From Dacryopinax spathularia (taxonomy: Eukaryota; Basidiomycota; Dacrymycetes; Dacrymycetales; Dacrymycetaceae), in NCBI GenBank assembly GCA_037974965.1, contig JBBPFI010000007.1, positions 1,302,001 to 1,366,000 on the forward strand: a stretch of DNA of 64,000 bases, read 5' to 3'. The notes below the pieces were generated by a model. That model ran no database searches, had not been told where the DNA came from, and saw only the letters and a list, made by a program, of their open reading frames with translations. Position numbers and translations under genes: made by a program. Below are positions 3,933-57,600 of the stretch, in pieces. Numbering within the stretch: position 1 is the stretch's first letter; each line of letters opens with the position of its first letter.

Positions 3933-3934
3933 GA

Positions 3935-33612: not shown

Positions 33613-33809
33613 ACTCTCAGACCACCTCTCCTTCTTGCAGATCTGCGCTCTGATTGGCTGAGATTGGCCGGCGATCACTCGGCGATTCACACTTTGGCCT
33701 TGGCTGACTAGGGGACACGTGCGGGGGCAGTGCCACAGCTCAGGGTTCATAGGCGCGGATATGGTTGGTTCCACTGGACAAAAGTCAGTTCTGTGCCGGT
33801 TTGGTAGTC

Positions 33810-33965
33810 AGGCTGCGGCCACAGCTACCCTGGCCGCGGCTAAAGCTACCCTGGCTGCGGCCATTGGACCTCGGCTTCAGCAGCGAGGCCTTTGGCCGCA
33901 GCTCAAGCCGAAGTCTTCTTGGCCGCAGCCCAAGCCTGGCCAGATGACTCGGCACTGCCACAGCC
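33810..33965. repeat. GC-rich degenerate repeat at the left flank of the block
   Basis: Imperfect repeats of GGCTGCGGCC / GGCCGCAGC and GGCTTCAGC. Similar motifs, in the other orientation, occur near 57380-57500 at the other side of the block. The match is short and degenerate. Confidence 0.4.
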
Positions 33966-34147
33966 GGAGCCAGTTCCGTGAGGGTCCCTCGAAAATGTCT
34001 GCAGGACCCTAGGGCCCTGAAGGATGTCTCCGGGGTCCATGAATGGCTCATAGCCATGGTCCTGATCCAGCACATGTGAATGATCGTGTTGGGACTCCCA
34101 CGCACACTTGACTTTCTCCTACTCCCCACAACAGCACACCTTCGGAG

Positions 34148-37100
34148 ATGGAGCAACCTATATACTCAGGAAACTGCTTTGCTTATGCAACACCAAGCAT
34201 CAATACAGACCGTTGCCCCTGCCCCAAGTTCCGCTTTCCACCCCATGAAGTCTCCCCACAGCTCACTGCATATGGGTTGCCGCGCGAGGAGGAACTTTGT
34301 CGATGTCTTCATAGGTTTCGGGATCATGAGGAGGCTCCTGCTCGTGGTAAGCATCATGTTATCAACATCTTGAGAAGCTCTCTAACGGAGGTTGGTCCAG
34401 GACAGAGACCTGGACTACAGATGTCTGGTATCCACTCAGGGGTTGGCGGACCTCCTCGGACGCCTCTTCGTCAAGGAGATGGACTAAGACGGTCCCTATT
34501 GGAGGCTTCATCTCCTGTTTCTCGGTCTCCCAGAGGTGGACTAGGTCCAATCATTCCTTTTTCTGGCCGACAATCACTCTCTCCTGCTGGAATGCTGGCA
34601 GCAAATAACAATCGGGCAGCTAGTGCCGCACGTCATTTCTCCAGAGGAGCCCAACTTCCATCCATTAGGCCAGCTCGTGGCCGTGGAAGACTTCAGCCAC
34701 CCGATATCACTCTAAACATCATAATACGACTGTTCCCACCTGCTTCCAATGGCTCTGGTGAGGTGAGCGCTCTACTGGCTGCTTCTTGCCAGTTTGGCCG
34801 TAATCGACTTCCCAGGCAGGTCAACAGAATCGTGTTTATAGGATTGCTCGGGACCTCTTCATATCAAGGTATGTCGACCCTCCCCCTAATCCATGATGCA
34901 CATCCTGACGCAGAGTAGGTGCAGAGAGTATGGCCTCACATTCACTATCACACTCCCTCGCCAAGCCAGTCTCATGGAGCTGGATACCCAACTGCAACCT
35001 CTCATGGCGCATCTATATTTCCCCCCCCCATATCCCGCCCACTGCCATTCACGGTCCACATATCCATCTCTTTCCTGGCTCCCTGCCAAGGGCCGGGGTG
35101 GAGGAAAGCACGTGATGCTTATCCCGATTGAAAATCAGCCTTACAAGAAGGCTTTTGATTTGTGGAAGGACTGCGGGGGCAGGGATGATCGTGATGTGCC
35201 TGACTTGCACATATGTATGCTCTTCAACACCAAGTCTTCCTGTTTTCTTCTAAACTTAGAACTAGTACCTCGAAATGGTAACCTCCAGCGAATGGTGCAG
35301 GGGCAGCCAGTGGCCGCAGGATTCCGGTTGCTAGCAGAGATGCGCAACGATACCCTAGGAAGCATAGAGTTGGATCGCCTATCCGAGGAGTCTGAGGAGG
35401 TGCGTGAGCTAGATCATTGCCAAGGTACTTGGGCTCATTCTCTTTTACAGGATCGGGAAACCTCCCACCCTTCGTCCCCCCAGAGCGCCGCAGTCCTTGT
35501 GCCTAACCGGGCTCACCACTCTCTTCCTAATGGCTCACAAGAGGAGCACCATGGTCGTCTTCATGGTGCTCCGCCTGGTCACAACACTGTTCCAGGTCAT
35601 GCTCAGCTGCCCAACCCACCAACTCATGGCGCTATTCCTCATGGGTCAGAAATAGGGAGGCCTGCTTCAGCACTTGGAGAAACTGATACCATATTTCGTC
35701 CACTTGGCATGACACCTTCTTCCTGGCCCTCCACGGGTAGGCACTTGGGCGCTCTTAACTCCCAGCCCTTCCCTAGGCAGGACTTGGTGAGGTGGCAGCC
35801 CTCCAACATGACTCGTCATATTGTTTCCGGTACCCCTTCCGAGATCTGCTCCATCAATGGCTTGATCTCAATCTTGCGGGAGAAATCGCACCTGGATCAA
35901 ATGGCGCCAGATACCCCGGACATCCGTGGCAGCACCACACTGGAAGCAGCACAAAATCTTGAGACCTGGATCCGATCTGCTCTCCGTCCTGTGATAGCAG
36001 AGCAGGGTAGTCTCCCTGTATCTGATCTCAAACATTTCCTGGCAGTTCGGCACTGGATAACTGTGTAAGCCATTATGAACTTTCTGTAAATTGCTCTTAC
36101 TTACTATTAACAGGGGCCCCGCCAGCCGAGGTCAAGGCACAACCCGAGATGTGCTATCCTGTCTTCTTCAAACCTTCATTGAACAAGCCTGGTTAATCCC
36201 CACTGGAGCTGCAGGGTATATGACTCTCAAGACAAGGAACTACAACAGCAGCATCCCTTTGCCGGTCTTGTCAGAGGAGGAGAAGCTCAATTTTGCTGTA
36301 TTAGGAGCCATCACCCTCGCATACATCTGTCTGGCGGGACATGGACCCTACCAGATCAGTCCGCTGCTCATCGAGAGAGTGGCCTTGAAGGAATTCAAGC
36401 CTTCTATGCGAACCATGCGTCAATTCGAGCCAGAAATTTATGATGCATTGCTCATCTGGGAGTCAATTGGAACCGAGGGTAAACTAATGGACCCACAACA
36501 GTCGATGGTATGTCACTTTACTCTTCTGACTGGGCCAATACATGCTCATCCTGTTGTAGGAGAAGAATCATCCGCAGTACAAGCTAGCACTATATGCCTA
36601 TCAACGGCTGGGACTGCTTGTAAGCCAATCTCCTTTGTTTGGTTTGCGTCCTCTAAAGAATCTTTCAGCCAGCTCATTTTCACTTTCCTCTGGATAAAGA
36701 CATGCACCAACGTTGGCATACTTATCTGATCGCTCAAGCAAGCCTACCAGCCCCATTCGACATGCCGGAACCGGAAGAACTTCGATATTTCCGCAAGGGC
36801 TTCGACTTTTCCTTCCCTGACGGTAGCACAATGATCCAGGTGAGAATGGCCTACTATATCTGGGCATCCACTGATTTCAAGGAGTAGATTATCAGAATGC
36901 AATACAAGCAAGGTCTTCGAGGTTTCCTGAAGGATGCATGGGGAGAGGAGCGGCTGGATACACCTGCTCAGATCTTACCCAGGTTGAAATGGGTCTTCGA
37001 CTCTGAAGCCTCTGAGATGTTGCAGAAACGTATCAAAGACATGATCGAGAACTTTTTGCAAGGCTCTGGCCTGCCTCCTCGTCTGGACGAAGCAATCATT

Positions 37101-37468
37101 GGAGGAAGGTTCTCTTGGGCAGATGGTCTTCTGCCCCGACATGCTGAGGACCCCCTTTTCCGAGTTCGGCGGTTCTTGGTCATGGCAGCCGGAGAGGCGA
37201 GGCTGCCGCCTCGAGGCACCTCGGGGGCTTGGATATCCGTGAGTGAGAGCCCTTTTCCCCCCTGCTTTCTTGCTGACCATGGTCTCAGATCAGATTGGAT
37301 AGATCCGCAGCAGGCATCAAGTGGACCACATGCTACCCGCAAGTCATTATACCGGTACTTCCGTCCCATGACGACCTTTTGCAACCAGGTGATTACGGGG
37401 TTGGGCTGCCATTTGACACTGCTCTGTTCATGGAGATTGCGGGGAGAAGAGATCACACTACTGTATAG
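34148..37468 (+). CDS. HECT-like E3 ubiquitin ligase, multi-exon
   Basis: Exons that splice cleanly are 34148-34346, 34401-34868 and, for the catalytic part, a region ending 36064, then 36114-36507, 36560-36619, 36669-36839, 36888-37238 and 37289-37468. The middle (34870-36064) is coding but I could not fix its introns. The N-terminal two thirds are low-complexity and Pro/Ser-rich. The C-terminal part follows a HECT plan: GQGTTRDVLSCLLQTF, NFAVLGAITLAYICLAGHG (N-lobe), FRVRRFLVMAAGEARLPP, then IKWTTCYPQVIIPVLPS with a cysteine (codon at 37331) at the place of the catalytic residue. HECT ligases pass ubiquitin from E2 to substrate through that cysteine. The similarity is by motif only, so this could be a distant relative with altered activity. 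Confidence 0.5.
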
Positions 37469-37910
37469 TTTTAAGGACAGGTAGAATTCCTCTCTTGATA
37501 CATCTCCATCATGACAGAATTGGCAACATCCTTCATTACCATATGGAAGGGGCTAACGTCGCCTAAATCAAGCTGTCTGAGAGGCCGACCGCGATATACA
37601 CGCTTACTATAACTGAGCAGGTTTACACTGATCAAAGCAGGCTTGCCAGACTTTGACTCTATAGCAATGAGCAAGTGGCTTCCCATGATCCCGCCCCCGG
37701 GCCTGCGGGGCCAGCGGATAGGATAACTCCGAAGACAGACTCCAGACTCGGCCACCCCCGCGTTACCAACGCCCAAGAAGGCGGAGAACAGGGTTCCTAC
37801 TGGCTATTCACTACGGACCACCTCAAATCTCCCATTGTAGCTCCTTGCCCTGCTGCTTCTCCTGTTCTTGATCTTTTGGTCCTTCCCTCCCTTTTTCTGG
37901 CCCAGTCCAC
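37469..37910. other. Spacer between the HECT-like and integrase genes
   Basis: The tail of a minus-strand ORF (37471-37776) is open here and not obviously a shadow, but it has no recognisable motif. The right half is pyrimidine-rich before ATG 37911. Confidence 0.3.
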
Positions 37911-39732
37911 ATGGATGAAGCAGTTGGTGAAGCCATTGAAAGCTGGTATGCACGCTGGCATACCATCCTGAACCGCTTGAACCGGTCGGCGCACCAAAAC
38001 AAGGGAGATTACTCCATGTTAACTCGTGTGGAGGAGCAAGGGCAACAGTTTTTGCATGACACTCAAGAAGTAAGCTCAGTCTACCTGTCCTCAGTGGACC
38101 AGTGCTGATGTTGCACAGATAAGGGCGCTCCTGCCCTTGGAAGACGTGGAGGCTGCCTTGAGTTCGGTGAGGCAAGCTCTTCAAGCTGTTCAAGGGGCCC
38201 AGAAGGAGGAGGATAACTCGATAACATCTACTATTATCCCTGCTGTCTGGCAGGGGACAGGGGGTTGTCCTCGATTGCTCTTCAACGCCTCATGGCTGCA
38301 GGCCGCCCTCTCGTTGGCCACACCTACCGCCATTGCGCGTGTCCTCGGAGTCGATCGCCGTACGATTCGCCGCAGGCTGCTGGATCTGGGTCTCAAGGAG
38401 CCATGCAAGCCTGTCTTTCATAGACAAGAGACTGCCCAAGGCTGGACCATGGTGCCCACATTGGAGAGCTACCAGGATCAGGCCAACCGCCCCACCGATG
38501 AAGATGTGGACGATCAGGTCCGGGCTGCCACACATCTGTTCGATTTTGGTCGTCCAATGATGCAATCATTCCTTCGAGTCCAAGGGCTAGCTGCCACACA
38601 GAGGCAGGTGAGGGCATCCCTGCAGCGGGTGTCCCCATACCGAAAGTTTGGAGAGCGTCGGCTACTGAAGAGACGGGTCTACTCTGTAGTTGGTCCTAAT
38701 GCGCTTTGGCACATTGATGCCCAATTAGGTGAGCGTGGCCCACTTCCTTGCTCTTAGTCTTGAGCTCCTTCAGGACTTCGAAGATACGGCATTGTCTTTC
38801 ACGGCATAATTGACGGCTACTCTCGTCTGTGCGTCGGCCTAGGCGCTCACACAAACAATCGAAAGGATACATTCTTCCGTCTGTTTGAACAGTCTGTCGC
38901 CCAGTACGGTACACCATCTAGAGTACGGGGGGATCATGGACGTGAGAATCTGGATATCGCCAGTTGGATGGAAGAAAACCAGGGTTTGGATCGGGGTTCT
39001 TTCCTTTGGGGCAGGTAAACAAGTCTCTTCGCTCGACCCATTCCTCACAGGAACTTCGAGGCAGCGCGCTGAATTTGGTTTACTTTTAGATCTGTGCACA
39101 ACATTCGCATTGAACGGCTTTGGGTGGACGTTACTCGTGGAGTTGGCGCTCGCTGGAAAGACTTCTTTGCCCGGCTGGAGATCTATCACCATCTTGACGC
39201 TTCGGATGAAACCCATCTTTGGCTCCTTCACCGTGTTTTCCTTGACCGCCTCCGTCAAGACGTCGAAGTATGGCGGAACGTGTGGAATGAGCACAGTTTA
39301 CGCCTGCCGGAAGGTGGGCTTAGCTCTCCGGCAGCTTTGTGGTACTTTGGACACCTGGAGAAAGGCGGCCGAGGATTGGACTTTCCCGGCCTCAATCAGG
39401 AGCCGGAACAGTCTGACGAGGAACCCGAGCTGGAGGTCGACAGGTATGACCCCGTCTATGATTTACCTCCTGAACGAGGAGGCGGCCACATGTATGGAGT
39501 AGACTGGCAGGATATGGAAAACAGGATGCTACAAAGTCACCGAGTGGGCGGAGGTCAGCCCCGGAACCTTGCTGAAGCCGCTGTTGATGACCCCGGCTCC
39601 CCCTTGAGCGAAGAGGAATGTTTGTTGCTGGATCAATCATTGCCCGCCATTGGAGAAACACTGGACGTGGAAAGCATGGCAGAGCTTTGGGAGCGGGCCC
39701 TTACAACTTACGAGCATATTGTTAGTCAATAA
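37911..39732 (+). CDS. D,D,E integrase/transposase with retroviral-integrase fold
   Basis: Spliced model: 37911-38069, 38119-38728, 38774-39014, 39090-39732 (550 aa, phases consistent, intact). Residues about 110-140 form a helix-turn-helix (IARVLGVDRRTIRRRL) that likely binds DNA. The catalytic core has the first D in ALWHIDAQLG, then VFHGIIDGYSR, the second D in SRVRGDHGREN and the catalytic E in HNIRIERLWVDV, which is the rve-type D,D,E triad. The C-terminal 100 residues are acidic and variable. This type of core is known from many fish and fungal genomes as the eukaryotic integrase-core family linked to DNA transposons. Its place between HECT and JmjC genes marks the block as mobile or derived from a mobile element. 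Confidence 0.85.
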
Positions 39733-40093: not shown

Positions 40094-43000
40094 ATGCTCA
40101 CTGCTCTTTCAGAAGCAGTCTACCAGCTCCATCCTGGACTCTGGCAAAAGTTTCTCCAGCCCCTCGCCCTTCGATGGACCGCAAGCATCCAGTTGGACGC
40201 TTTGCCAGAACCTTTGGAGCGAGGCATCGACCATGCCGAGCGCGAAGTCTTTCGATGGATCTGTAGTGTGGTCCAGAATCCTGATCTACTACAGAACTCA
40301 CTGGGTATTGATGCCTGCTCGGTCCTTGGCGGACAACGCCTCCATGACGGATGGCGATATGTGCAGATGATCATCCTCACCTGCGATCGCCTCAAACACT
40401 GCTTTGAACTGGAGCCCCGGCCTGACCAAACCCTAGTTCAGCCTTCCCTGACAGCAGAAGTCGACCCACCCTCTGTACAGCCCGCTCCCGTGTCATTTCC
40501 AAGGTACCTCAACCTAGAGGACATGTACTTCTACCACCCTGGCCGACATTCGGCCACGACCTCCCGCACCAAGACCCTCGTGGAAGTCACGAACACAGCA
40601 CTAGACCGTCTACTAGACATCTACGCTCGATTGAATCAAGACGTCGAAGAAGACGGAGAGAACGAAGGGGAGGAAGAGGGCCCGGTAGCCCTCATGACAG
40701 CGGCATTGCGCGAAGGAGAAGAAGGGGACGTGGGCTACTTCATGGCCAATTTGCAAATGTTGGCTTCTACAATCGGACTCTATTCGGTATGTCGCCCACG
40801 GCTCTGCTTTGCTTCAGCTAACGTCCCTTTAGAATCTGGCGCTTGATACTCATGGAGCGCCTATCCTGCCGGAGGACTTCAAAACTGCCATGCTGCAGAG
40901 GTCCAAAGGGACAACCAAGTTGTCTAACTCCAAGCTCTTGACGCCCAACGTCCTCGCCGCCTTCTTCAGTATTGCAACCATCTTGGCCGAGGTCAAGCTC
41001 TATTACCATGACATTGGGATACATGTCCCCGCCCAGGTACGGTCCAGTCTTTATTTTCCACCTATAACTTACGGCCACTTAGAGGCATGTTGTCTACGGT
41101 GACATCGTTCCATGCCATCGTGCAGATCCGACCACGTATGCCTTCCGCCGACTGGAACAGATCCTGTGGAAGGTGATCGCGGCGCTGCCCTTCCAAAAGT
41201 TTCCTTGCAAGAAAGGACTCGCTCGCCTCGCCCGTCGTAAATTCGTCAGAGATGCCTTGGCCGATGTCGTAGAGTTGGAGATGCTGCTGACCCCCAGGGG
41301 CGAGATCTACTACCCGATGTCGCAAGCTCTGGGCACCGTGCCTCGTCTGTATCTGGAACCAGCTGGGGCCATCTCCCCATACTATGAGCCGGCCCCGGCC
41401 ACAGAGGATAATCCGCCCAACGATTGTCCGGATGAGGAGAGGCAGGAAAGCGGGCAAGAAGGGCCAGGCGACCAGAGCCCGATGGATATGGACATCGACA
41501 ACGACATCAACATCGATCCTGCTCTCAGAAGCAACGACCCCCCGGTACCAGCCGACGGTGTGGCCGCCCATGTCACTAGGGAAAATGGGTCGGTTCAGGA
41601 ACATGACATATCTTTTCCTCCCCCTGGGGCTGACCAACCAAGCTCCCCAAATCCCTCCTCGATTGCTGGTGGTTTGGCCGCCCATGTCACTGGGGAAGAT
41701 GGGTCGGTTCAGGAACACGATATTCCTTCTCCTCCTCCTGGGGCTGACCAACAAAGCTCCCCAAATCCCTCCTCAATTGCCGACTCTCCATCGGAGGACA
41801 GGCTGTCCCGTTCCATACCAAACGGCGCATCCTCCGACTCCTCCTTACATTTGTTCCATTCGCCAGGCGAGGATGGGCATACCCCAGCGGTCTTGGACGA
41901 CGAACCCTCACATGATACCCAAACTGTCAAGCGGTCGGAGCGCCTCAAAGCCCTAGCCGAGAAAAACGCCGGTTTGCCACCTGCTCCCGAAACCCCCTCC
42001 TTCGCAAGGCCTCCTAAGCGCCCGAAACCCCCTAAGCGCCCCAAGCCAGATAATTCGGACGCTTCTTCAAGGAGCCACAAGCGACCTCGTCTCTCGTCGC
42101 AGGATCTGGGCGGGGAAGGAGGCCGGCTCGATGGGGAACAGGGGCCCACTGTGGGTGAAGACCCGGAGTCTGAGGAAGGGGAATCTAGCGAGGACGAAGA
42201 GCAGGAGTCCGAGGAAGAGAGTGATGGGCTCAACAAGGAGCCTTCTGCTCCAGCCAACCGCTTGGCTGGAGATGCGCCATCCCAGGAGGATGACCGGGTC
42301 CCTGCAGCCCTTCAGGATGCAGCCGTCCACACTCCAATTCGGCTCCTCCCTGGAGGCAAGCCGCCATTGGGAACAAAGGAGGATACTGTTCCTTCCCCTC
42401 TGCGAGTCCTTGGCCGGCACAAGCTCTCACTTCTGGCTGGTCTCCATCTTTCCAAGCTGGCGCCCAAGGAAAGGCAAGCGGCTCTGATGAAGCATATCAA
42501 GGCGTTTGCCACCCCCACCCACGAGGTACAGTCCCCTTGTGGCGAAACAACTTGTACTCATTCTCTTTCCAGGTAGGCTCTTTTTCTCAAAAGGTCAAGA
42601 AAGAAGCAGAGATAATCCGCTTAAAAATGCTGAACCATCTGGAACAAACGGGACGAGTTGTCCAGCCTCAGCTGAGGCTCGAATTCGTTGCCAATGAGGA
42701 ACCCCGGGGGAATGTCCGTCATGACATCCTGCAAGAAGAGGTAAGTCCCATGGGCAAGTAGTTCAATCCTCCTCGCATTCAATATCTACACAGGAAGCCG
42801 AGTATGAGCTCTTCCACTTCAAGACACGAGACCCTAATCAGGTCATACCGGTGCCATTCCCTGTTCGGCCCGACCCTCGAAGCCGAATTCTAGGACTGTC
42901 TTGCCTCAATCCCTGCAACAATGTAAGCCCTTATGGATTCCGAAGATGGTCATTGACATCCCAGTCAGAAAGGGGCGCGAGAAGATCTACGGCATTTGAT

Positions 43001-44698
43001 TCCCCACCTCACCCTGCTGACGCCGCCAGCCCCGTCCCCGGAGGAAGATAAATGGCCCCATGTGCCTGCCCTTCTGGAAGGAGAACCAGTTGCCTGGTTG
43101 ACGGAGAAGCATATGGCCGAACTGCCCGCCTGGGAGCTCCAAGACCTCTATGCCACACGCCACGTGTATGTAGTGGGCCAGCGCAATGAACAGCCGCCAG
43201 TGGCATGGACGAAGGAGAGCGTAGGGGAGTGGCATGACTTGGATCTGAAGCTGCAGGCTCTACGTGCGCTGGCCATGTTTCCTTCCCACTTTGCCGTGCT
43301 CACATGTGATGTAGTTCAATCTCGATTAGAGCAAGCGCTTTTCTACTCCGAACTCGAGGTCCAATGCACACCTGCCGCTTGGTATACCGATGTGACACTA
43401 GGCGATATATTGGAGCTCTCTATCCGCTACCCTGCTTCGGCACCTGCCCTGAACGTCCTCTCTCTGCCAGAAGAGAAGAAGCATGCGAAGCCCGTTCCTG
43501 GATACAAGTCCGTCTATTGCACCCGAGCATATCCTGTTGCTGATCATGAACAGGAAAATGGCCGCTCACCCTGTCGCAGTGGAACAGACTAGGGGTGCAG
43601 GAAATGTTTATCGTGGCTCAGCTCGCTTTCAGGAAGATTGGTCCATGGGGAACACCGCCGGGGCCTACAGTCGCATGCACAGCGATTCGGGGGGGCTGTC
43701 AGTTGCGGTGAGCCCTCTAAGCGGCCTTCCTCTCCACATCCCAGCAACTCGGAATGCGTTGGAGTTCAAGACACCGGGATGCAAGCTGTGGGTCTTCTGG
43801 GATGGGGAATTTGACAATGTCGCCCGTCCCGGTCATATCGCGTCTGAATGGGTGGAAGAGCTGAGCAAGAAGGGGGTCAAGGTATGGGGGGTTCTTGTGC
43901 ATGTGGGAGATACCTGGTGAGTATAGCCTCTATCACCATCCAACCTGGGGCGGTCGGTTCATATCTGGCTCAGGTATCAAAAGGCGGGTACTCTGCATGC
44001 AGTCTGGTCCCCTACCCCAGTGATTACCACAGGCCACTCCTTTGTAGTGTCCACTCAGCTGGACCAGATGCTGAGGGCTCGCCTTCTGCAAGCGTATCTG
44101 GGCCCAAACTTGTACAATGATGAGGTCATGTCCGTTTTCATCTGGATCAATCGCCTGGCCATCTTCACTTGGGACCACATGCGCAAGATTAAGGCCGCAG
44201 GGAAGCTGGAGTTCTGGACTGCCTCAGAGCGCCCTCCAGAACTTTGCACAGGGTCCGGTCAGTCATTTGGATCTCTCCTGGGTTTGTGATCCTACTAATC
44301 CATGTATTTTAGCCCAATATGTACCCTGGCCCATGAAGCAGCTGCTGGCGCTTCTTTACATGGTCAAGGATCACCTCAGACTCATCCCCCAAGATGAGGA
44401 TTATCAGAAGCTATGGAATGAACTCAAAAGTCAAGAGTCCTTCGTCAACGAGTGCAAGAAGGCAGATGCGACCGCGGACTCCATTATTCAGGAGCTTTTC
44501 AAGACTTCAGACAATTATCATCTGGCACTCTTTCTATGTCTCCCGGAAATTGTCTCCATCATAGCTCGGTTTGAGTCAGCCGATTTGAAGAAGGAGGAGA
44601 GGATGTCTGAAAAACGATTATCGGGTAAGAGGCCGCCCGTCCAGTTACCGGAGGGTTCCGTGACCAGTTATACCTGGCGTCGTCCAAATTTGGAATAG
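40094..44698 (+). CDS. Large protein with C-terminal JmjC-like 2OG-Fe(II) dioxygenase domain
   Basis: Nine-exon model: 40094-40786, 40833-41036, 41083-42525, 42573-42740, 42794-42922, 42969-43507, 43554-43916, 43974-44257, 44313-44698 (1402 aa, every phase consistent, no break). The N-terminal 300 residues are helical and unknown. Residues about 400-770 are disordered, acidic and include two near-identical repeats (GSVQEHDI..PPPGADQ) and a basic PPKRPKPPKRPKP nuclear-type patch. The C-terminal JmjC-like fold shows H-x-D in RMHSDSGGL (near residue 1100), CKLWVFWDGEF, and GDTWYQKAGTLHAVWSP with the second metal histidine. JmjC enzymes demethylate histone lysines using 2-oxoglutarate. The residues to bind iron are present. 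Substrate is unknown. Confidence 0.7.
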
Positions 44699-45431: not shown

Positions 45432-47075
45432 ATGGGAAAGGCTCAGAGGAAACCGAACACACGTCGTAAGAGGAGCTCGTCCATGACTTCTGTGAGCAGC
45501 ATCCGAGGTTTGTTGGCATGGACCTAATGCGGCTGATCACCGTTTCTAGGTGTATAAGGAACGTCTCAAAGACCTCCAAGGTTTCGCGGCCGACCGACCC
45601 GCTAAGGTAGCTGCTGTCGATCCTACCATCCCATATCGTCCACTTTCCAAAGCCTGTCTCGACCGGACTCGAAGTCCTGCCAATGCGGAGAAGCGACTTG
45701 CCCGCACCCTCTACCGATACTACGAGCAGATGGTCAAGCATACCCAAACTTATAGAGCCAACTTCCCCCTCCAGCAGCTGAAGAATCGTCAACTGGCCTC
45801 CGAGTCTCTACTTGCGAAGGCTAAGCGACAGATTGCAGCCCTTGATGAGCAGCCGGCGATTGCCCAGTCAGCAGTGTACACGGATTGCGACGGCAAACTG
45901 CTTCTAGTGTATTTTGCAAGGAGATTGGTCAGTCTGGTGGCCTGTTTCATCGTCTGCCATGAACTCACCGCCATGCAGCAGACCGATGATTTGGAGAAGG
46001 AAGGAGTCCCACTGTACAAGCAGTACGAAGGCAGAACAGAGGATGACATCGAAAGAAAGGAGTTGGCAGGGTTCCATGTTTATAGGGATGGGCTAAGCGT
46101 GAGTGATCTTGTTCTTGGAGATTGTGCCGGCCATTGTGACCAGGATACTGGCCAGGTCGAGGAGCAGTTCAATTATCATCGGGCAGTTCAGGACTATCGG
46201 GCTCGTGTCCATCCCAACTTCCCTAAAGGGGACTCTCGACACCGCGACGACATGCCGTGGATGGTTTATCAGGACGCAGGGAATCGGGAAGGCATGTGGG
46301 AAGGGGCGGGATCCGACTCTGAGTTACATATGGAACCAACCGGGGTCTCTCACTTAATGCATGCATGGCCTGAGCAAGGTCATCCCAATAAGGTGAGCAC
46401 CCAACTGTATTGTCATTATCATAGGCTTCCTAACAAGAGAGCCGGGCTGTTTCAGGTACCGGGTATATCGAAGGACATGCGGGGGGAAACGAATGAAGGG
46501 GCTCGAGCCGTTGCCCAGTTCTTCCTGAACACGAAAAGCGTTGCACTGCGCCTGGCAATGATGTTCAAAGCCACTTGGCCTGCCGCATATGAACGCTACC
46601 AAGCAGCATTTGAAGCTGGTCGGTGGCATGTCCAAGATCCTGGCCCATGGCTGGGCAGGGCAATCGTCTATAAGCTGCAAGTCGCCTTGCATGCAGATCG
46701 CCAAGACGGGACCAAGGAACAGGACGATTTTGATGGACCTACGGCTTGCTTCTGCGTGGGTCGATTCAAGGGGGGTGCGGCGTACTATCCTGACTTGAAT
46801 GCCAAGTTTCTGTAAGGTCCTTCCTCCGCTCAAGGCTTTGTCTCACATTCTTCAACAGGTACAGACCTGGTGAAGTCATTCTTTGTCTTGCGGCTTTCCT
46901 GCTGCATGAAATCGGGGACTGGGAGCCGGAGATAGGGGTGAGGGACGGTTTAACTCCAGGGAGGATTGGTAACGTCTTCTTCTCCCCTGTCTCCTGCGTG
47001 AAGCTATTATGGGATAAGGAGGCTGGCTGGCTACATAACACATCGGGAGGGGGGTATGCCCAGGTAAAGATGTGA
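45432..47075 (+). CDS. TET/JBP-like 2OG-Fe(II) dioxygenase (putative DNA base oxidase)
   Basis: Model: 45432-45491, 45550-45927, 45979-46098, 46156-46392, 46456-46811, 46859-47075 (455 aa). It starts with a short basic leader (MGKAQRKPNTRRKR). The catalytic half has VPGISKDMRGETNEG, LGRAIVYKLQVALHADRQD with the H-x-D iron pair, CFCVGRFKGGAAYYPDL, YRPGEVILCLAAFLLHEIG with the distal histidine, and LTPGRIGNVFF whose arginine fits the 2-oxoglutarate site. This order is characteristic of the fungal TET/JBP family, which is greatly expanded in basidiomycetes and known to travel with transposons. The family oxidises 5-methylcytosine or thymine in DNA. Three introns are multiples of three, so their exact use needs RNA support. 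The most 5' exon is the least certain. Confidence 0.75.
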
Positions 47076-47382: not shown

Positions 47383-49790
47383 ATGCCTTCGTCTCCTACT
47401 CATGGGAAGGCCGCATGTGACGATCTCTTCTCCTGTGGCATGCATTTGCGAACAAGGACTCTTCCCCCTCCCAGCCTTCTACCGGTCAGAGGAACTGGGC
47501 GCCGTGGCAAAGGTCGAAAGCTTTTGCAGAGTGGCGCTGGGGCCAACGAAGGGCAGGGAAAAGCGCAAGTCAGCGCAAAGTCAGCGCTTGGGAATGTGGT
47601 TGATGTGACCCTGCCCCACCAGGGTGGCATGAGCACGGAGGGTCAGCATCAAGAAGAGGTAAGCATTCTTCTCGTCAAGGGATGCCAGGTAGCCACAGTC
47701 AGACTGATGGCCATGGCTAGGCTGAGATTGAGGCTCTGTTGCGCCTTTCACCGACCCAGCATGGCGGCATGGCACAGCAGGAGGGTGAATTGGCCTTGGG
47801 GAGTGTTTGTGTTCCACTGCAAGACCACCAACAGGCAAGTCTTTCTTCTTTCAGTTGACAAGCTTTGGGGCTTGATGACATGCGGCAGGTACCGGGAGCG
47901 GCCCCAGCTCGTCCCTCATCTCGGCCGTCCAAGCGACCTCCGGCTCACAGACCATCACACAGTCCAGACAGCCCTCGTAACCAAAGGCGGAAAATCCTTG
48001 CAGAGGCAGCTCAGAGACGGGTCGCCCGCCAAGCGTTAGAGCCCGAAGCAAACTCAGAGGGCACCACAATACTCCCCACAGCGGGCGAAACTGTGTACCT
48101 CATCGGGAGGCCAGTCGCAATGGTTGAACACGAGCTGAGCGGAGGATCAGCCGACACCGCTGTTGGAGAAGCCCCAGAGCAGGGGCGTCAGGACGGCAGG
48201 GAGGCAAGCCAGGAGACGCAGGGAGTCGAGCCAAACAGTTTGGAGCACGGTAAGTCCGCCAGACGCCATGTCCTGCAGAAGCTGCTTGACTTACTACAAA
48301 GGATGCATAGGCGCAACGCTGGCTACAAGGATGATGTCTCGCGATACTCCGGCATTGAAGAGCCCCGGGCTGAACGGGAACCTTCCCTTAATGGTCCCCG
48401 CCTCTGACATCACCAGGGTCGGGGCCCTGAGCCCGCCCACGCGGTATGTGACGGTCTTGCTCATCGTGCAAACATCAGGCAGCCCCAGCAAGCATTTGGT
48501 ACTGCAGAATATACCCCTTCCCTCCTCAGATGCCAATGAATACGACGGCGTCATTGTCCGAACCGAGCTCGGCGTTCTATGGCCTGCGGTGATGGCATCC
48601 ACCGAAGTGGACTGGAACCAGTATGCAACCCATCACCTATGGTTATCCCGCATTCCGGATTCGCTCAAGCAGCTCCATCTCAGCCAACTTGGCGGGTGGC
48701 ACCTGGCAAAGTTTGACCAGGTCTTAGAAAAGAAGGGCAAAGCTCTAGCAGCCAAGCTTACAAGTGCGGTGCCCAATGACCCTTCGGGGAAGTTAGCCCG
48801 GTTCTACGCTGCAAATGGACTGGCGCTCGACAGCAAGTTGTTTGTGCTGGAGCTTGTCTGTCTGAAGGTGAATTCCAGTATCTGTGCCCCAACCTCTGGC
48901 TGACAATTTTCCTTCAGCCATCACCCTACAGCGGTGCTGAACCCATTCCGTATGATCCGGCCTTGGAGATAGGGTCAGATCTTTCCAGCGACGAGTCTAC
49001 TTTGATTCTCTCCGATGCCTCATCAAGCAGCGATCCGGATGATGACAGGCAACTTTTGGAGCCAATTCCAGGACGTCATTCCCACACCCCGACTCTGAAC
49101 CTCAGGGCTCAAGAAGGCTTGCCGAGGGACAGGCAGATAGACCATCCGCCCGTGTCCCTGGGTCCAGCAGCCGCCTTACAAGTCAGGCGACATGATGAGA
49201 ATCACAACTTGCTGCCTGATCGCACAGGAGCAACCTCCATCACCCCGACTATCCATAACCTTCTCCAAAGCGAAGTGGAACGGATTTTAGGCTCTGGCTC
49301 TGGTCGGTGCATCTCCGTGGCTCGGACAGCACCCAAGAATCCCCAGAATCAGCCGGCTTACGTGCTGTACCAGCGCTGGGCCGCCGCACGGCTCATCCTA
49401 CAGAAACTCGGCCTCCTGGATAACTACACTGTGTCTATAAGAGGGCAGGAGATCCGATCTGCTGAAGTGACCCAGTGGCTGAACTTTGCCGATTCCACCT
49501 GGCGCCATAACAACGCGCGCTTCCGGACCCTTCAAATCGCACATGAACAGCTCCTGCAGGAAGAGGCACTTACGGACCGTGCCCAGGCTGCCCTTCAGGT
49601 CCTGGCCCATTTCACTAGCCAGGCAGTGGGGCAGAGTTCTCCACCCAGAGAGGTGGAACGCCTCCGCATACCAGAACTCCTCAAGCTGGTCAACGAAGCT
49701 TTGCCAGATTCCGTGGCACTCAAGCAAGCTCAGAGCAGGGAGCGGTCAGCAGCTCAGAAAAAAGTAAAGTCCGCAATGAGAGGGCGCTGA
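47383..49790 (+). CDS. Unrecognised 726-aa protein
   Basis: Spliced model: 47383-47658, 47721-47834, 47889-48249, 48311-48867, 48918-49790, with consistent phases. The second intron begins GCAAGT, a GC-AG intron. The first third is basic and Pro/Arg-rich (SSRPSKRPPAHRPSH), nuclear-like. The middle (RYVTVLLIVQTSGSPSKHLV onwards) looks like a folded domain. Then there is an acidic Ser/Asp linker (SSDESTLILSDASSSSDPDD) and a helical C-terminus ending AQKKVKSAMRGR. I do not recognise any family. Co-orientation and short spacing place it with the TET/JBP-like and F-box genes. Confidence 0.6.
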
Positions 49791-50077
49791 GAAAGGATGG
49801 TTGGTAGCAAAAGATCGAAACATGTTTCCTTCCATGCTGTCATCCTCCCAAACTCATGTATACAGCAATATAACCCCCTGATTCCCTAAGCAGCGAGGGT
49901 GACAAGCGGGCCGTCCCCTGGGGTATGACGGATGAAGGGTCTACCTGCCCCTTGCTTCCGCTGGAAGTGAGGTGGCGCTACGAGAACGTCATCCGTCATA
50001 TGCCAGTGGGCTCCTGTAGTATTAATGGTCTTATGATTTCGCAAGCTGGCTTCAGTCCCATCCCTTAATCCTGCCAT

Positions 50078-52395
50078 ATGCAAAGCAAGACTCAGACCAC
50101 AGCTCCTGCACCCAAGATGAACCACTGGCTACAGATGGCCAGAGGACACCATCCAAATATTACTGCCAAGCTTTTTGTTCTACCTACAGAACTCTGGTGG
50201 ATGATATGTGATAAGCTGCAGTTGGCAGACCTCCTCAGAGTATCCCAAGTTCGTTCAGTTTCCCCTCCTCCAGCACAGATTGATCTGATAGTTGCTCTAG
50301 GTCAACCGCCGACTCCGTTCACTAGCACGGGATCCCATCTTAGCCCGGTTCAAGCAACTCGCTGCTCAAGGCGTCCTACCTCTCCCGGCTTATGGCCTTC
50401 CTCTGAGTGCAATGAGCGACTTCCAGCTCCATGAGCATGCCTGGCAGATGACACGGGCCTGGTCGAGACTTGCGCCGCCGCAGGATGGGTCCTGCTCTCG
50501 GTTGCTTGCCAGCTCCATTTCGTTGGAGGGAGAGCAGGTTGAGTGGTGCCGCATGCTTCGTGGGATTCTATTCATCGGAACTCGACAAGGCGAAGTCTGG
50601 TGCTTCAAATACAGAGGAAAAGAAGCAGAACTCCTCATGCGCATCCCAGTGCGCCCGAATGGCCATATTCCTAGGCCAGTTGTCGCCGAAGGCATGCTCC
50701 TTGTCGAGGCGCAAGACGGAACTCACTTTGATCTCCTTTTCGAGATGGTGCCGCAAACAAAGAGCATCGAGGCTGCCGTCACGGAGGTCTTGGCAATCAA
50801 CATATCCGGACACTCAGTCGAAATCACCAGAAACCTCCTCATGTGCCGCAGCAGCGGCGTGATAGCCTTCACTTCCAGCTGGATATGCGCTACGAAATGG
50901 AACGGACAACCCCGCATGCATCTTTACCAGTGGAAAGAGCTGTGGATGGTAGACCTAGATGTTCCTGCCATGGTATGAAAACCTGCTGCCCTTATCCCAG
51001 CCTAGAGGCTAACCCGCGGAACAGTGTACCCCCTTGGCCGCCGCATTTCTGCACCAGTATCTGGTAGTGATCATGGACAGGTGCATATTGGTTTATGAGA
51101 TGCAGCCTCTCCAAGAAGAAGGGCATCCAGCAACCGATGTGTCTGACCGCATGGAGAAGAAACAAGTCCCTGAGCTACATCAAGAAGGACCTCCGCGCCA
51201 CACCCGAAAGGCACCGCACATTGTGCAGTTACCGCACCTGCTCTGGCAGGCCACCGTGTGGGATCAGCAAGCTGCTGCTTCGTTCTCAAAACACCAGCCC
51301 AACCAAGCCCCGGGAGGAACCGGAGATAAGGATGTCAGCATCTCAGTAGGAGTCCTGGGACGGACCCGACTCGGCATACAGGAATTACAAGTAACGATCC
51401 GAATGACCACATCTGGGGTCCAGGTTGATCTGGGCATGCGAACAGTGTTCCACATTCCTGATGAGGAGAGGATTTGCGGTCTGACCGTGGGCCGCTCTGG
51501 TCTTGATGCCTTTTGGACGCAGGGAGGCGCTCTGGTCCGGGCCGTTTGCTCATCAACCAAGCGTATGTGGCAGCATGGCATAATATGGCATGCCCATGAT
51601 GACCTCACGCACGCCCGCCCTTTGGCGTTCGACGACGTGTGCCCTGCTCTTGTCCTTGGGGCGCCTGGGGCCACTCGCTTGGTTCTCCTCCTTGCGGCAA
51701 GCGGGAACAGCGTTCAACGGAGTTTCGGAGCTACTCCGCAGCAGGACTATCTTCCTGTTGTGGAGGATCTGAGGCAATGCGAGGTACCTCGTCACTGGTC
51801 CATACCCCAATTGCAAGGTGTTTTGGTAAGTCCCATCAGTCGAAAGGCGATTTGATTCTCACTTGTTTTGTAGATGGAGATGCGAGATCGGCGCATTCAA
51901 AGGCAATTGCCCCAGTTGGGCAAGACTTGGAAGGAATCCTGCCCAACAAAACTACCTTCTGAGTACATGGCGCTAGAGAAGATGGAGTCCAGATGGAGGT
52001 CCTATCCGCAAGGTTACCTTCACCTGGCTATCCGGGGTCTCCACTTCCCGGCTGGGGCCCAGCCAATTGTCCTTGGCCCGCCCGACGAGCTCCTCTTCTA
52101 TCTACCTGGTTACGGGTACTTGGCTTTCATCGAGGTAGGGTTGGATGACAGAGAGTACGCCTGGTTCGGTTGGAGGACATCGCTTCCTCTTCCTGATTTC
52201 TTGGAGAGCCGTAGAAGGAACTCCATACCAATAGTGAGGCCATCCTGCCATTGCTGCGCAATTGATTGGGACGCGTTGGGGGAGGATCGAACGTGGCATG
52301 AAGACTGGGAGATGGCCTGGCAGGGGCTGCAGGAGAAGGGAAACTCAGTATCTTTTGTGGCCGTGGGATGTTTGCGTCGTTTGGGGGCGCTCTGA
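50078..52395 (+). CDS. F-box protein
   Basis: Spliced model: 50078-50248, 50301-50972, 51025-51825, 51874-52395 (721 aa, phases consistent). Residues about 30-60 are a clear F-box, FVLPTELWWMICDKLQLADL followed by LRVSQVNRRLR across the first intron. F-box proteins dock on Skp1 and present substrates to an SCF ubiquitin ligase. The long C-terminal part has alternating hydrophobic strands (GILFIGTRQGEVWCF, YLVVIMDRCILVYEM) that suggest a beta-propeller or similar substrate-binding fold, though no WD motif is seen. In its setting beside an integrase and a HECT-like ligase, it may recruit a host protein for degradation. That is inference. Confidence 0.7.
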
Positions 52396-52563: not shown

Positions 52564-54270
52564 TCATTCAAAACCAACGCCGAGCTCTTCAGCAACCTGG
52601 TCTATGGAGAACTCTGCAATCTTCTCCCATTGACCTTTGACCAGCTGGAAAAACTGATGGTTGTGCGAGTCTGCAAATTGATTTCGAGCCCATGTGAGAG
52701 TTAGCAGGCAGAGCAGACAAAGTCGAACCGTGGCACTTTTCAGGAAGTCCTCGATATGGCTTTCATCCAGATGAGGCCTGGACCGGGGGAACCACCGTGG
52801 GGCATCAACAATGTCTGAAAAACGGGGGCCAATCGCCGCTGCAGCTTTCACGTTGCAGGTGGCAAAGTGAAAGCTGCTGCCCTCGGGTAGCTCATGAGGG
52901 GGGTCCTTGAGGATGTTTGCAACCCTGCTAAGGAGTAAGTGCCAAGAGAATGAGTGATTCTTTTTGGATGTCACTTACATGATCCAGTTGGAAGTCTCAG
53001 CGCAGTGCGCCTCGAGGATGCCCTTGCCCAACTGTGAGAGGCCCAACAGCTCCGTCTGGTCATAAGGTCGCGTGTTCTCCATACTCCTTGGCCAGAAATC
53101 AGGATTGCCCCCAACCCTCGCCTCTATGGCGTCACGAATTAGAGTGAGACGATTGAGGCCGCCCCCAAGCGCGGCATTGAGAGTGTGCCTTAACACGGTC
53201 CTTGCCATAGGCTTAGGACGCCTGGATGTTGCCGGCGCGCCCTGATTGACTGACGGGCTGATGGTAGTGCCTGCTCCCACCTGATACGGTTCGCCAGCAT
53301 GACGGAGAGGGCGATTTCCGAACCAAGAACTTGGACCGTGGGAGTTTGGCGCCAAGGTGGGTTGGGTGGGTTGGTCAGGGTCGGTAGGAGACGCTGCCGA
53401 TCCAGCCGTGATCGCGCCAGGTCCATCGCCCACGATATCCGAATCCGGGTCTTCCCCCGCAGCTTGCACCATATGGACCCTCAGGCTCTGGTCAGAGCCG
53501 GCCCGACGGCCCAAAGGGCTCCGACGTCTGGGTTTGGCGATAACCATAACATTGAGCATGCGCGGGACGTCGTCTCGGTGTGGACGAGGAGAAAATCGCA
53601 CGAAAAGCCGACAGGTGACCATCATTGAGAGATAGAGCTCGTTCCAGCTCTTCACCGTGAACAGAGAGGATATGAGCAGAGCTGGTGCAAGCGTAAGTAG
53701 GAATAAAAGTCCACCGGACATGGACTTACCGAGAGCGGTGTAGAAGTTCGTCACCAGGAGGACATCGTACTTGGTAACGATGATTTCGTCTTCCAATTCC
53801 CTGTTTGCCTTGCCGGTGACTGGAATCTCCTTCATGCTGTTGTGCAAATCCTTGAATTTAGAATCGCACGCTTTCGCTTGTGCCATGGTGTAATAAGGGA
53901 TGCCAGGAATGACACCTTCGTAGTTCTCGCTGTCACAGAGTCAGTTCCAAGCCAGGGCTAGGACAGGATGGGAGAGGAGGGAAGTAGATGGCGTACCTAG
54001 CCAGATACATGAGCGGAAGCTCGACATGATTTCGGAAGACTGTCCACAAGGCATCCCGGGGACCTATGTGCATGCGAAAAAACTCCAGAATCTAGGAAAC
54101 AATGTGAGTATAACATAGCATGCTGGGGGCTACAGACATACCCTACTGGCCGGCCAAGCATCCAAATTCAACAGATCGCGGGCAGTGAGCTCCCTGTGGG
54201 CCCAGTACAGGCGTCCCACTCGCTGGAGGAAGCCCCCCGGTCGTCTGTCGTCATCAGGAAGACGGAGCAT
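52564..54270 (-). CDS. Unrecognised minus-strand 496-aa protein
   Basis: Minus-strand model: 54270-54142, 54091-53997, 53929-53730, 53681-52979, 52927-52564, phases consistent. It begins MLRLPDDDRRPGGFLQRVGR, then LEFFRMHIGPRDALWTVF and ENYEGVIPGIPYY. The middle holds a hydrophobic stretch (ALLISSLFTV) and a disordered Pro/Ser/Gly linker, the end is helical (FLKSATVRLCLLCLLTLTW). The third intron (48 nt) can also be read in frame. If kept, it lengthens the hydrophobic stretch into a possible TM helix. It is the only gene of the block on this strand and converges on the F-box gene. No family recognised. A perfect palindrome lies about 190 nt upstream of its ATG. Confidence 0.55.
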
Positions 54271-54458
54271 AATGATGGAACGAACCACACCGCAGAGGGT
54301 GGTTCCAAGGATGGGAGACGCAGCTGAGGAGACCTTGATCAAGGGGTTGGAAAAGGGAAGGGAAAGCTGAGGGCAGAGAGAATGGGGCGGAACTGGAGGG
54401 GCAATGAATGACTTCGGAGGAGGGCGAGGTAGAGTCGACCAAGGGACCCTTACCGCTA

Positions 54459-54498
54459 TTTGCTTCCGGGCCAAACTCGAGTTTGGCCCGGAAGCAAA
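54459..54498. promoter_or_regulatory. Perfect 40-bp palindrome centred on CTCGAG
   Basis: Left half TTTGCTTCCGGGCCAAACTC is followed directly by its exact reverse complement. The central 16 bp are the same as in the array at 39785-40000, and the shared block extends to TTCCGGGCCAAACTCGAGTT. It lies upstream of the minus-strand gene (ATG 54270) and upstream of the plus-strand gene at 55137, so it could serve a divergent promoter. Confidence 0.85.
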
Positions 54499-54499
54499 G

Positions 54500-55136
54500 A
54501 GCCACTCGGCTCCGACCGGACTCCGCGGTCCTAGTCCATTGTCGAGGGTCCAGCCAACATGACAATGACTTGTTTCGCTTCTTCTTCGCTTCCCACGCCC
54601 TCTGACTCACATCAAAGTGGTTTCTTCTCCTATTTCTGCCAAAAATAGACGAACCTACCTCCTTTTTCGGTGAGTTCCCGTGGAAACTCGCCACAAACAA
54701 CTGAAGAATGACTAGGGCCGTTAGGAGCGCATACACGAGCATTTCGGAGGTCCGTGCATGCCCCACTGACTTATTTAAACTGACTGCAGCCAGAGTCCGC
54801 CGCATACATCTTGCTTCTCACCGTCCACTTCCTACCTAACCGCCACTATCAATCCTCTACAAACGCTTCTTGTCTAGCCAACTCCCCCTTGCCTCTACCC
54901 AACGCTGGCTTCTCAGCTTGTCGAACTGTGTCTCCTGGTGACTGAACTCGCCGTGCTCACTGTCGACCTCATCCTGGTCATTGCCAACCAAGTGGAGTCC
55001 CAGAAGAAGGCTTCTCGCTTGACCATCCGCCTCTTCCGACTACTCGAGAACCTTGTGCTTGTTCTTGATCTTCTCGTCCCTGTCATCGAAGAAAGGTCCT
55101 TTCTTTAAACTTCCTGTGCGCATATATCCCACGAAA
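54500..55136. other. Divergent intergenic region
   Basis: A stretch at about 54930-55100 is open in one plus frame without an ATG (DLILVIANQVESQKKASRLT), which might be an upstream exon of the next gene. No motif supports it. Confidence 0.3.
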
Positions 55137-56761
55137 ATGGCGACGAACCCTACCCTCAACCCTAATAAGAAGCGAAACATGGAGCTGGACGGCGACTACT
55201 CTGCCGCTGAAGAGCCCCTCGATCTTAAGTCCCTTCCTGACCTGTTGGCGGAGAAAAAGAAGCTGGCCGAAGGAGAAATCCCGGACGATCTCGAGGACAA
55301 TGACAAGAGATATTGGCCGATGAAGCTCACGTTCAAGGGAAAGTTCCTTCCTACCAGCGACAGGGCCAGGTTGGCGCCCCTGTGCAACCACATTAAGTGG
55401 GCGCAAGACATAACATCCAAGGACGGCCGTCGCTGCTGGGGTGAGTGGCTTTGTCTGGATCACTTGCGGTAGACGTTAACCTTTTCTTTCAGTCTGCCCG
55501 TGCCCTAAGGCGCAGAACGGCTGTGGAATGTTTGGTAAGTCATCTTGTCTCCCTCAAGAGGTTGGACCTGGCTGATCAGATGAGTTAGAGGATATGAAGG
55601 CGGCACGACTACGTTTGCATGGGGATCCGTCCTTTGTTCCCATGGAAGCCACTTATGGCCCGCTCGAAACACCAGATATCGACGTTCCCCTGTGGAATAT
55701 AAGCAAGGCAGTCCGGATCAATCCTATCAAGCTTCGCGAGCTCCAGGTGAAGGCAGTTGAGCAGAAGCAACGCGAGCTGCGAGATCTTCTGCGCAAGGAG
55801 GAGGAACGTAGGCAAAAGCTCGAGGCTGAGGAACAGGCCAAGGCTCGGTCTAAGGCTCGGACTCGGGCTGAGGCTGAGGCTCTGGCTCGGGCTGAGGCTG
55901 AGGCTGAGGCTCAGGAGCAGGCTTGGGCGGCTCGGGTTCGGGCTCAGGAGCAGGCTGAGGCTGAGGCTCGGGCTCGGGCTGAGGCTCAGGCTCGGGCTCA
56001 GGCTAAGGGTAAGGCTAAGGCTGTTTCTGTGCCCGAGAAGGATGTCCCGCAGAATAAGGCCAAGCCGAAGTATCCGCCCTTTGTGCCGCCCACGATCACC
56101 AATCGAGATGCCCTACAATTGGCAACTACATCGAGTTCTACGACCACCAAACGCACAAGTGGACAAGCAGGACTTACTGACAAGGACAAGGTGAAGAAGC
56201 AAAAGGTCAGTAATTAACTCTTTCCTTGTCCCAATATCCAGGCGCTGATGGGGGAACCAGAAGGCGGTGGGCGGGGCTATGGTTATCACGCAAGGAATGC
56301 AGACGACGGCCAGGAAGGACAAGGACAAGCTAAAGGTCCATTTCGCCGGACAAGCTGAGGTGCAGGGCTATTCTGATCAGGAGGAAGAACAGGAGGGTCA
56401 GGGAGACGTAGAAGAGGAAGAACAGGTTGTGGCAGCAAGCCTGGTCGTGGAGAGCGATGACTCCGATGAGAGTGACGAGGAAATGGACATTGAACTCCTC
56501 GAGGTGCGAGCGCTTTGCTTTGGTCAAGAACTCTACTGACTGGCGTGATGCTAGAATCCAGACGAGGCAGCAGAGGAGGCAAATGAGCTGTTGAAAAAGA
56601 CGGTCAAGCTCCTCGAAAAGTCGAACAGTCCTGACATGTTCCTGGATCACCTCCGTGGCGTCTTGAACCTCGATATCCGAAACATCAACCCTCATTGGCG
56701 AAGTAAGATGAGTCGCATTTTGGGAAAGGAGGAACATCGCTTTGCGGTTAAGGACAAGTGA
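55137..56761 (+). CDS. Lys/Glu/Ala-rich coiled-coil protein, unrecognised
   Basis: Model: 55137-55440, 55493-55534, 55580-56205, 56261-56503, 56555-56761 (473 aa, phases consistent). The N-terminal part has KRYWPMKLTFKGKFLP and a small cysteine patch (CWVCPCPKAQNGCGMF) across two introns. Residues about 170-270 form a long helix, first VEQKQRELRDLLRKEEERRQ, then an Ala/Glu/Arg repeat (ARAEAEAEAQEQ) encoded by a GCTGAGGCTCGG minisatellite. A basic segment, an acidic segment (EEEQEGQGDVEEEEQ) and a short helical end follow. A nuclear structural or adaptor role is possible. No family recognised. Confidence 0.6.
55840..56010 (+). repeat. GCTGAGGCTCGG minisatellite in the coding sequence
   Basis: Six-base-step repeats of GCTGAG, GCTCGG and GCTCAG encode alternating Ala with Glu, Arg or Gln in the coiled coil of the gene above. 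The Leu/Arg-rich ORF in another frame is its shadow. Confidence 0.9.
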
Positions 56762-56903
56762 CTACAGATTAATTGTATGTGGAATATGTTCTTCTCCCTG
56801 GGAATAACCTGCTCACACATTCTCTAGAAGTTCCCTCTCTCACTGAGCCAGCTTGGCCATGGTTCCTAACCATCATGCACCTCGGTAGAAGACTTGGCGC
56901 ATT

Positions 56904-57194
56904 CTCCCTCTTATCACTGCTTGTTTCCTTGCTCTTCTCATGATCCTGGTCTTGCTCCTTTTCATTCATAGGTTACCCCACATGCTCATTGTCTTGACTA
57001 TACTTTCATTGTCAATTGTACTACAGTGATACCTATCTCTCAGGCTGCATTGCCGCTTTTCCCCTCTTATCACTCACTGTTTTCTTGCTGTTCTCACAAT
57101 CCTGGTCTTGCTGCTTGTCATTAAAAGGTTACCCTACATGCTCATTGTCTGAACTATCCTTTTTCATTGTCAATTAAACTACTGCGATACCTAT
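56904..57194. repeat. Diverged tandem duplication of about 135 bp
   Basis: 56904-57036 and 57059-57194 share CTCTTATCACT, CCTGGTCTTGCT, GGTTACCC.ACATGCTCATT, CATTGTCAATT and GATACCTAT in the same order, with scattered differences. They lie 3' of the coiled-coil gene, in its 3' UTR or the right flank of the block. Confidence 0.85.
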
Positions 57195-57221
57195 AATGAC
57201 AATAACATTATCCCGCTTACG

Positions 57222-57250
57222 GAAAAAACAAAAAAAAAAAGGGGGGGGGA
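57222..57250. repeat. Poly-A then poly-G tract
   Basis: About 18 A (one C) followed by nine G. A homopolymer junction, possibly a slippage site. No poly-A-tailed element is recognisable beside it. Confidence 0.8.
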
Positions 57251-57379
57251 GGCTGTGCTTGTTTATGGGGACCCCAGAAAGTTCCCAAATTGACAATTAG
57301 AACGTGTAAAAAATGTTTTTGCCATGGAGGCAAAGAAGCTGGAGCGGAAGCAAGGGCCACATGGCTAGCTCCTGCCGCA

Positions 57380-57500
57380 GCAACCTACTTCGGCTGAAGC
57401 ATTGGCGGCTTTTGCCGCAGCCAAGGGCTCTGGCCGCAGCAACAGAGCTGTTGCCTCGGCAAAAGCCTCTCCTGCTGCAGCATTTGGGGTTTTGTCCGAT
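57380..57500. repeat. GC-rich degenerate repeat at the right flank of the block
   Basis: Imperfect GCCGCAGC / TTCGGCTGAAGC motifs that resemble, in reverse orientation, those at 33810-33965. Confidence 0.4.
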
Positions 57501-57600
57501 AAAACCAGCCATACGCGGAAGAAGCCGGAAATGCGGAGCATGAGGGGATTTCAGGCACACCACAGCTTGTCAGCATCGACATCACTTTGCAAATGTAGGC

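Follow-up and report, generated by a model that had tools for sequence, protein, structure and literature searches.

We describe a multi-gene mobile element in the genome of the basidiomycete Dacryopinax spathularia. The window, i.e., the whole stretch of 64,000 nucleotides that was analysed, comprises positions 1302001-1366000 of contig C7 in an assembly of 29.2 Mb and 24 contigs, and the element occupies window positions 33760-57513. A first-pass annotation, made from the letters of the window alone, had marked an eight-gene block at 33650-57600, and the position and the number of genes agree well with what was found. The genes were modelled with a home-made splice-aware predictor using conservation hints, and the exon borders are predictions; the model of gene 8 comes from earlier predictor runs, the hinted run having returned this gene only as pieces. 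An initial model that divided the JmjC protein and the part preceding it into two genes was replaced by a single gene after comparison with the copy on contig C11. All eight models are open in the window, and the HECT-like region that the first-pass annotation could not resolve gave an open model of nine exons; the block is not wholly co-directional as had been thought, with gene 7 on the minus strand. The features are the following (window positions).

33754..33759, no strand: left target duplication CGCGGA, exact repeat of 57514-57519
33760..57513, plus strand: whole element, 23,754 bp, with a full-length copy on contig C12 that shares its sharp ends
33760..33783, plus strand: left terminal inverted repeat, 24 bp, imperfect (19/24 in C7)
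33831 and 33852: two TTGCYGCRGCAA-like motifs, with five more in the interior
34148..37468, plus strand: gene 1, HECT-like at motif level only, 959 aa, 9 exons
37911..39732, plus strand: gene 2, D,D,E integrase (PF24764), 550 aa, 4 exons
40094..44698, plus strand: gene 3, KDM2/7-like JmjC protein, 1369 aa, 9 exons
45432..47075, plus strand: gene 4, TET/JBP-like dioxygenase, 491 aa, 4 exons
48120..49790, plus strand: gene 5, no Pfam match, 519 aa, 3 exons
50000..52395, plus strand: gene 6, F-box protein, 717 aa, 5 exons
52564..53886, minus strand: gene 7, no Pfam match, 423 aa, 2 exons, antisense to the rest
54905..57513, plus strand: right-end module, DNA ~90% identical to the C8 copies, unlike the rest of the element
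55137..56761, plus strand: gene 8, no Pfam match, 473 aa, charged, with a Glu/Ala/Arg-rich stretch
57372..57483, no strand: five subterminal TTGCYGCRGCAA-like motifs (at most 2 mismatches)
57490..57513, minus strand: right terminal inverted repeat, 24 bp
57514..57519, no strand: right target duplication CGCGGA, exact repeat of 33754-33759

DNA searches with the block located a near-identical copy on C12 and weaker ones at two places on C8 (C8a and C8b) and on C11. Window positions 33760-57513 align end to end with C12:232829-256554, where the similarity stops abruptly on both sides, and 145 substitutions (0.61%) separate the two copies over 23,726 aligned bases; C8a and C8b differ by 425 substitutions in 23,351 bases. 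The copies are similar in length (C7 23,754, C12 23,726, C8a 23,408 and C8b 24,079 bp), and each is flanked by its own 6-bp direct repeat, namely CGCGGA in C7, AGAAAC in C12, GGTTTA in C8a and CATCCC in C8b. The C11 copy (C11:1113677-1144928, 31,252 bp) is flanked by TGAAAC on either side, and its right end is decayed. This end was located via the duplication, a string that occurs 3 times in the first 8 kb of the stretch, before the terminus was recognised, making this boundary less independent than the others. The termini read TATGG..CCATA in C7, C12, C8a and C8b, while one end is TAAGG in C11.

A pattern built from the ends of C7, C12, C8a and C8b themselves gave 14 matches at up to 2 mismatches in the genome, compared with 1 for the reversed pattern as control. 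Eight of these are exact and all lie at the ends of the four source copies; three have one mismatch (on C4, C11 and C14) and three have two. Searching with the C11 end and reading the sites revealed two miniature elements with both ends, namely C4:1860061-1860535 (475 bp, duplication CAGATG) and C14:249322-249741 (420 bp, duplication ATTTTA). Both have ends of the C11 type, including one TAAGG terminus, and being too small to hold the genes they were presumably mobilised in trans. An exact 6-bp duplication bounds all seven elements examined (5 long, 2 miniature). The first-pass annotation had envisaged a cargo-bearing element driven by an rve-type integrase, recognisable by copies of the entire block that sit at separate loci and have sharp ends in common, and this is what the searches returned. 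Judged by its ends, duplications and copies, the block is a real mobile element that has moved in the past. The TTGCYGCRGCAA-like subterminal motifs are putative binding sites of its integrase.

The five long copies fall into three lineages, namely C7/C12, the two C8 copies and the C11 copy, and the eight genes, their order and their orientation are shared by all three. Protein identities, given as C7-C8b and C7-C11 (C11-C8b was compared for seven genes, the HECT-like gene excepted), are 38.8% and 37.2% for the HECT-like protein, 38.1% and 45.1% for the integrase, 30.3% and 30.6% for the JmjC protein, 56.3% and 51.8% for TET, 37.6% and 34.5% for gene 5, 31.3% and 28.6% for the F-box protein and 27.6% and 31.2% for gene 7. 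Gene 8 reaches 87.0% between C7 and C8b (26.8% between C7 and C11, over 36% of its length), which against the mostly 27-56% elsewhere suggests exchange; likewise, the ~90% DNA identity of the last 2.6 kb between C7 and C8 makes it seem that a right-end module was exchanged between lineages. The C11 copy carries ~8 kb extra between genes 6 and 7, with four predicted proteins, none of which has a convincing Pfam match. A possible fourth lineage lies at C10:833941-861611, where a weak HECT-like match (833941), an integrase (856192) and a terminal-repeat match (861588-861611) occur within 28 kb.

The whole-genome exon search covered five of the genes. All exon-level matches of the TET part (10/10), gene 5 (10/10) and gene 7 (10/10) are inside the five elements, as are 22 of 23 for the HECT-like part (the remaining one, on C10, is 26% identical) and 14 of 16 for the JmjC domain (the others, on C4 and C3, are 27-31% identical). 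Pooled, 66 of the 69 exon matches are in the elements, which argues for a conserved set rather than chance neighbours.

The integrase and the F-box protein are firmly identified by their profile matches, as the first-pass annotation had proposed. The window integrase matches PF24764 with E=2.7e-60 and rve with E=1.5e-7 (32.1 bits, under the 32.6 cut-off); its catalytic residues are D253, D310 and E345, the same motifs are present in C8b and C11, and weak helix-turn-helix matches are seen before the core. The F-box-like domain of the window protein has E=1.4e-7 and 31.6 bits against a cut-off of 24.3, and that of C11 has 21.6 bits, under the Pfam cut-off. PF24764 itself is more widespread, with 32 exon-level matches genome-wide, 10 of them inside the five elements. 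Eight other integrase loci were read, and five of them (L001, L002, L005, L006 and L007) have an open frame, 34-37% identical to the window integrase; these five scattered integrases resemble each other more than the window integrase and form a second clade. Within the 3.5 kb searched, none of the eight single-exon integrase loci has TATGG-type ends with a target duplication.

The TET/JBP and KDM2/7-like JmjC identities have profile and active-site support. Eight of 11 aligned members of the TET family match PF12851 (best 5e-5), and the top four matches in the Protein Data Bank (PDB) profile search were two Naegleria TET structures (0.006 and 0.0075), a JBP1/TET domain protein (0.096) and CcTet (0.11). 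The HxD...H iron site is present in C7, C8b and C11, with the H and D of HxD invariant in the 11 aligned proteins. Nine relatives were found among the 8000 candidates scored, of which seven are named, from Suillus (2), Lyophyllum, Mycena (2), Pluteus and Trametes, names that point to the Agaricomycetes; a scan of viral contigs with the TET alignment gave 15 stretches that fit a pattern and no relatives. Searching the genome with PF12851 gave 7 places, none above the cut-off, and sub-cut-off TET/JBP matches outside the elements lie at C8:998044, C13:1016521, C8:499943 and C8:761543. For the JmjC protein, the PDB profile search returned a KDM7 homologue (0.0076), an unrelated ribosomal protein (0.15) and KDM2A (0.6), and the HxD...H site is kept in C7, C8b and C11. 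Pfam gave no JmjC match in the 2 proteins tested. None of 8000 candidates scored in a protein database search with the JmjC region reached E 0.001.

The assignment of gene 1 to HECT is a lead only. In the C-lobe of HECT ligases a TG..LP..G stretch precedes the catalytic TC; in gene 1 there are short motifs of this kind, and a TC is invariant across the three lineages. When compared by hhalign with the five genomic PF00632 domains, the whole protein scored 2.4% and its C-terminal part 7.0%, and the TG..P..G stretch was aligned; a further collinear segment (0.4%) is inside the shuffle range. The controls gave 1.2% (best of 40 column shuffles, whole), 0.1% (reversed), 0.1% (TET) and 0.3% (JmjC). 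A genome search with PF00632 found 13 exon matches at five other loci and none in the elements, and a protein database search with the HECT-like region yielded no candidate at E 0.001 among the 8000 scored.

All eight models are open in both C7 and C12, the two youngest copies. Pooled over the genes, these differ by 46 synonymous and 52 nonsynonymous changes, i.e., dN/dS of 0.35 (binomial p=4e-7, mutational bias ignored), and C8a-C8b gives 0.47 over six genes or parts, with 1.57 for the F-box part. Transitions fall at CpG in 50/91 and 187/305 cases, compared with 18% and 17% expected among C/G sites. The observed/expected ratio of CpG is 0.65-0.67 in four elements and 0.78 in the C11 element (last bases excluded), compared with 0.87-1.15 in the flanks read. 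Deamination of methylated CpG would produce such a pattern.

Among known elements, a complete IS3EU family is marked by TA..TA termini, and its target duplications are usually 6 bp long, according to the available text of PMC10045372. The TA..TA ends, 6-bp duplications and rve-type integrase fit the IS3EU superfamily, and we file the element as a much larger kind of IS3EU type. The available part of PMC12730594 describes TET-bearing IS3EU elements from seven rust species and Tuber indicum, which share with ours the 6-bp duplications, TAYGG..CCRTA termini, a transposase and a TET/JBP gene. In the rust families, as given there, TET lies between the transposase and an alpha-kinase gene and the inverted repeats exceed 30 bp, whereas our element has eight genes and 24-bp imperfect repeats, adds JmjC and F-box genes, and no alpha-kinase was seen. 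The TET motif also differs, being HxD here and HxE in the PE type of that paper as far as its available text goes. For Agaricomycotina, the same part of PMC12730594 lists the TET-bearing families Kyakuja, Zisupton, EnSpm, Plavaka and Helitron2, with no TET-bearing IS3EU given for Agaricomycetes, and it proposes that TET genes let fungal transposons escape silencing by methylation. Its main text, in the portion available and leaving the supplements aside, makes no mention of JmjC, HECT, F-box or ubiquitin, and our literature search, in whose scope most subscription papers did not fall, returned no other directly relevant paper on this gene combination. Since TET genes in IS3EU were already reported, it is the combination that is new and not the principle.

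Kyakuja and other KDZ elements are likewise fungal DNA transposons with TET/JBP genes, but they have a KDZ-type transposase and 7-8-bp duplications (PMC12730594, available text) where ours has a PF24764 integrase and 6 bp; for comparison, a KDZ element of 11 kb is described in the part of PMC12810828 available. The TET protein here is also far from CcTET (profile E ~0.1). The 6-bp duplications and the lack of any KDZ Pfam match in the eight proteins rule out KDZ membership, in keeping with the first-pass annotation, which had seen no such transposase. Polinton/Maverick elements are similar in size to ours and share the rve-type integrase and 6-bp duplications. They were rejected on the short terminal repeats and the absence of Pfam matches to DNA polymerase B, packaging ATPase, protease or capsid in the eight proteins. 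The Starship elements of Ascomycota are also large, multi-gene fungal mobile elements, moved by a tyrosine recombinase; no Pfam match to such a recombinase occurs in the eight proteins, which instead include a D,D,E integrase, and the element has target duplications.

The reading we favour, and consider likely, is that of a 24-kb IS3EU-type DNA transposon with a conserved gene set directed against silencing. Recognition of the short terminal repeats and the subterminal motifs would fall to the D,D,E integrase, which would insert the element into its target by joining the strands 6 bp apart. Oxidation of 5-methylcytosine on the element would be the task of the TET/JBP-like enzyme, and removal of repressive histone methylation that of the KDM2/7-like JmjC protein. 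Host silencing factors would be tagged for degradation by the F-box protein, which may be assisted by the HECT-like protein, the outcome being an element that stays expressed and mobile. The integrase and the ends explain movement, and the constant association of the genes argues that the set acts together; the enzyme activities, substrates, transposition chemistry and anti-silencing purpose are what we infer. Several observations weigh against this reading. Pfam does not match the window TET protein itself, for which the support comes from relatives, PDB profiles and the iron site, and none of the 7 PF12851 places in the genome is in the five elements. The HECT claim of that annotation went unconfirmed by Pfam (PF00632), NCBIfam or PDB profiles, leaving short motifs and an invariant Cys; the best PDB matches were unrelated (eIF2 gamma at 0.022, and 0.92 or weaker in a second search), and the C11 model of this gene is broken into three pieces. 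Between C7 and C12, the changes in gene 8 are 1 synonymous and 8 nonsynonymous and the JmjC gene has a dN/dS of 0.63; C8b has one internal stop in TET and one in F-box relative to the C8a frames. If the CpG decay was caused by methylation, then methylation was not fully prevented.

The extra genes could instead be passengers with a role in general gene regulation or for the host rather than in escape from silencing. Enzyme targets and activities are predicted, and gene 8 and parts of the JmjC gene change fast; but the eight genes stay together in three deep lineages, five hardly occur outside the elements in this genome, and the purifying selection between very young copies is consistent with the element making use of the genes, and we regard the passenger explanation as rather unlikely. 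A second rival is an old cargo losing its function, in which at least one gene no longer matters and copies move by chance or in trans. The internal stops in C8b, the decayed right end and broken HECT-like model of C11 and the existence of miniature elements are all in its favour, yet by substitutions the likeness of C7 and C12 is 99.4%, and none of their eight models is interrupted; we consider decay quite improbable. Segmental duplication of a host gene cluster, to which the large size and the several genes without match to known transposon proteins might point, is rejected as having next to no chance given the exact common ends, the inverted repeats, the differing 6-bp duplications at unrelated sites and the miniature derivatives. 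Extending the anti-silencing reading, the element may represent an undescribed class of large basidiomycete transposons. In such a class, an integrase of IS3EU type would be in lasting association with seven genes that together undo the methylation of both DNA and histones and turn ubiquitin ligases of the host on silencing factors. The association would be older than the split of the three deep lineages, and the elements would be able to swap end modules and would mobilise miniatures in trans; on this wider proposal we are evenly divided.

The surroundings of the element are as follows. The flanking genes (window 32031-33457 and 58304-59914, both minus strand) were read as related serine/glycine-rich membrane proteins, in line with the membrane-protein genes of the first-pass annotation, the membrane call being our reading of the models; the element starts ~300 bp before the modelled start of the left one. 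A repeat at window 57601-57986, 87 bp right of the element, is 95% identical to C5:271125-271507 and 85% to C10:830520-830902, and is perhaps a solo long terminal repeat (LTR). Farther away, window 3933-13860 is probably a young LTR retrotransposon, with 347-bp direct repeats (3933-4279 and 13514-13860, one mismatch) that flank a long frame read as pol-like.

That TET genes ride on fungal transposons was known, the question being why they are retained. In this one genome, TET-like and JmjC-like enzymes are held together with an F-box protein and others across three diverged lineages of CpG-decayed elements, on an integrase-driven fungal element of many genes. The idea of escape from silencing thereby becomes directly testable on an element that moved recently. 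A conserved set that includes demethylase-like and ubiquitin-pathway-like genes suggests that the element brings its own toolkit against host silencing.

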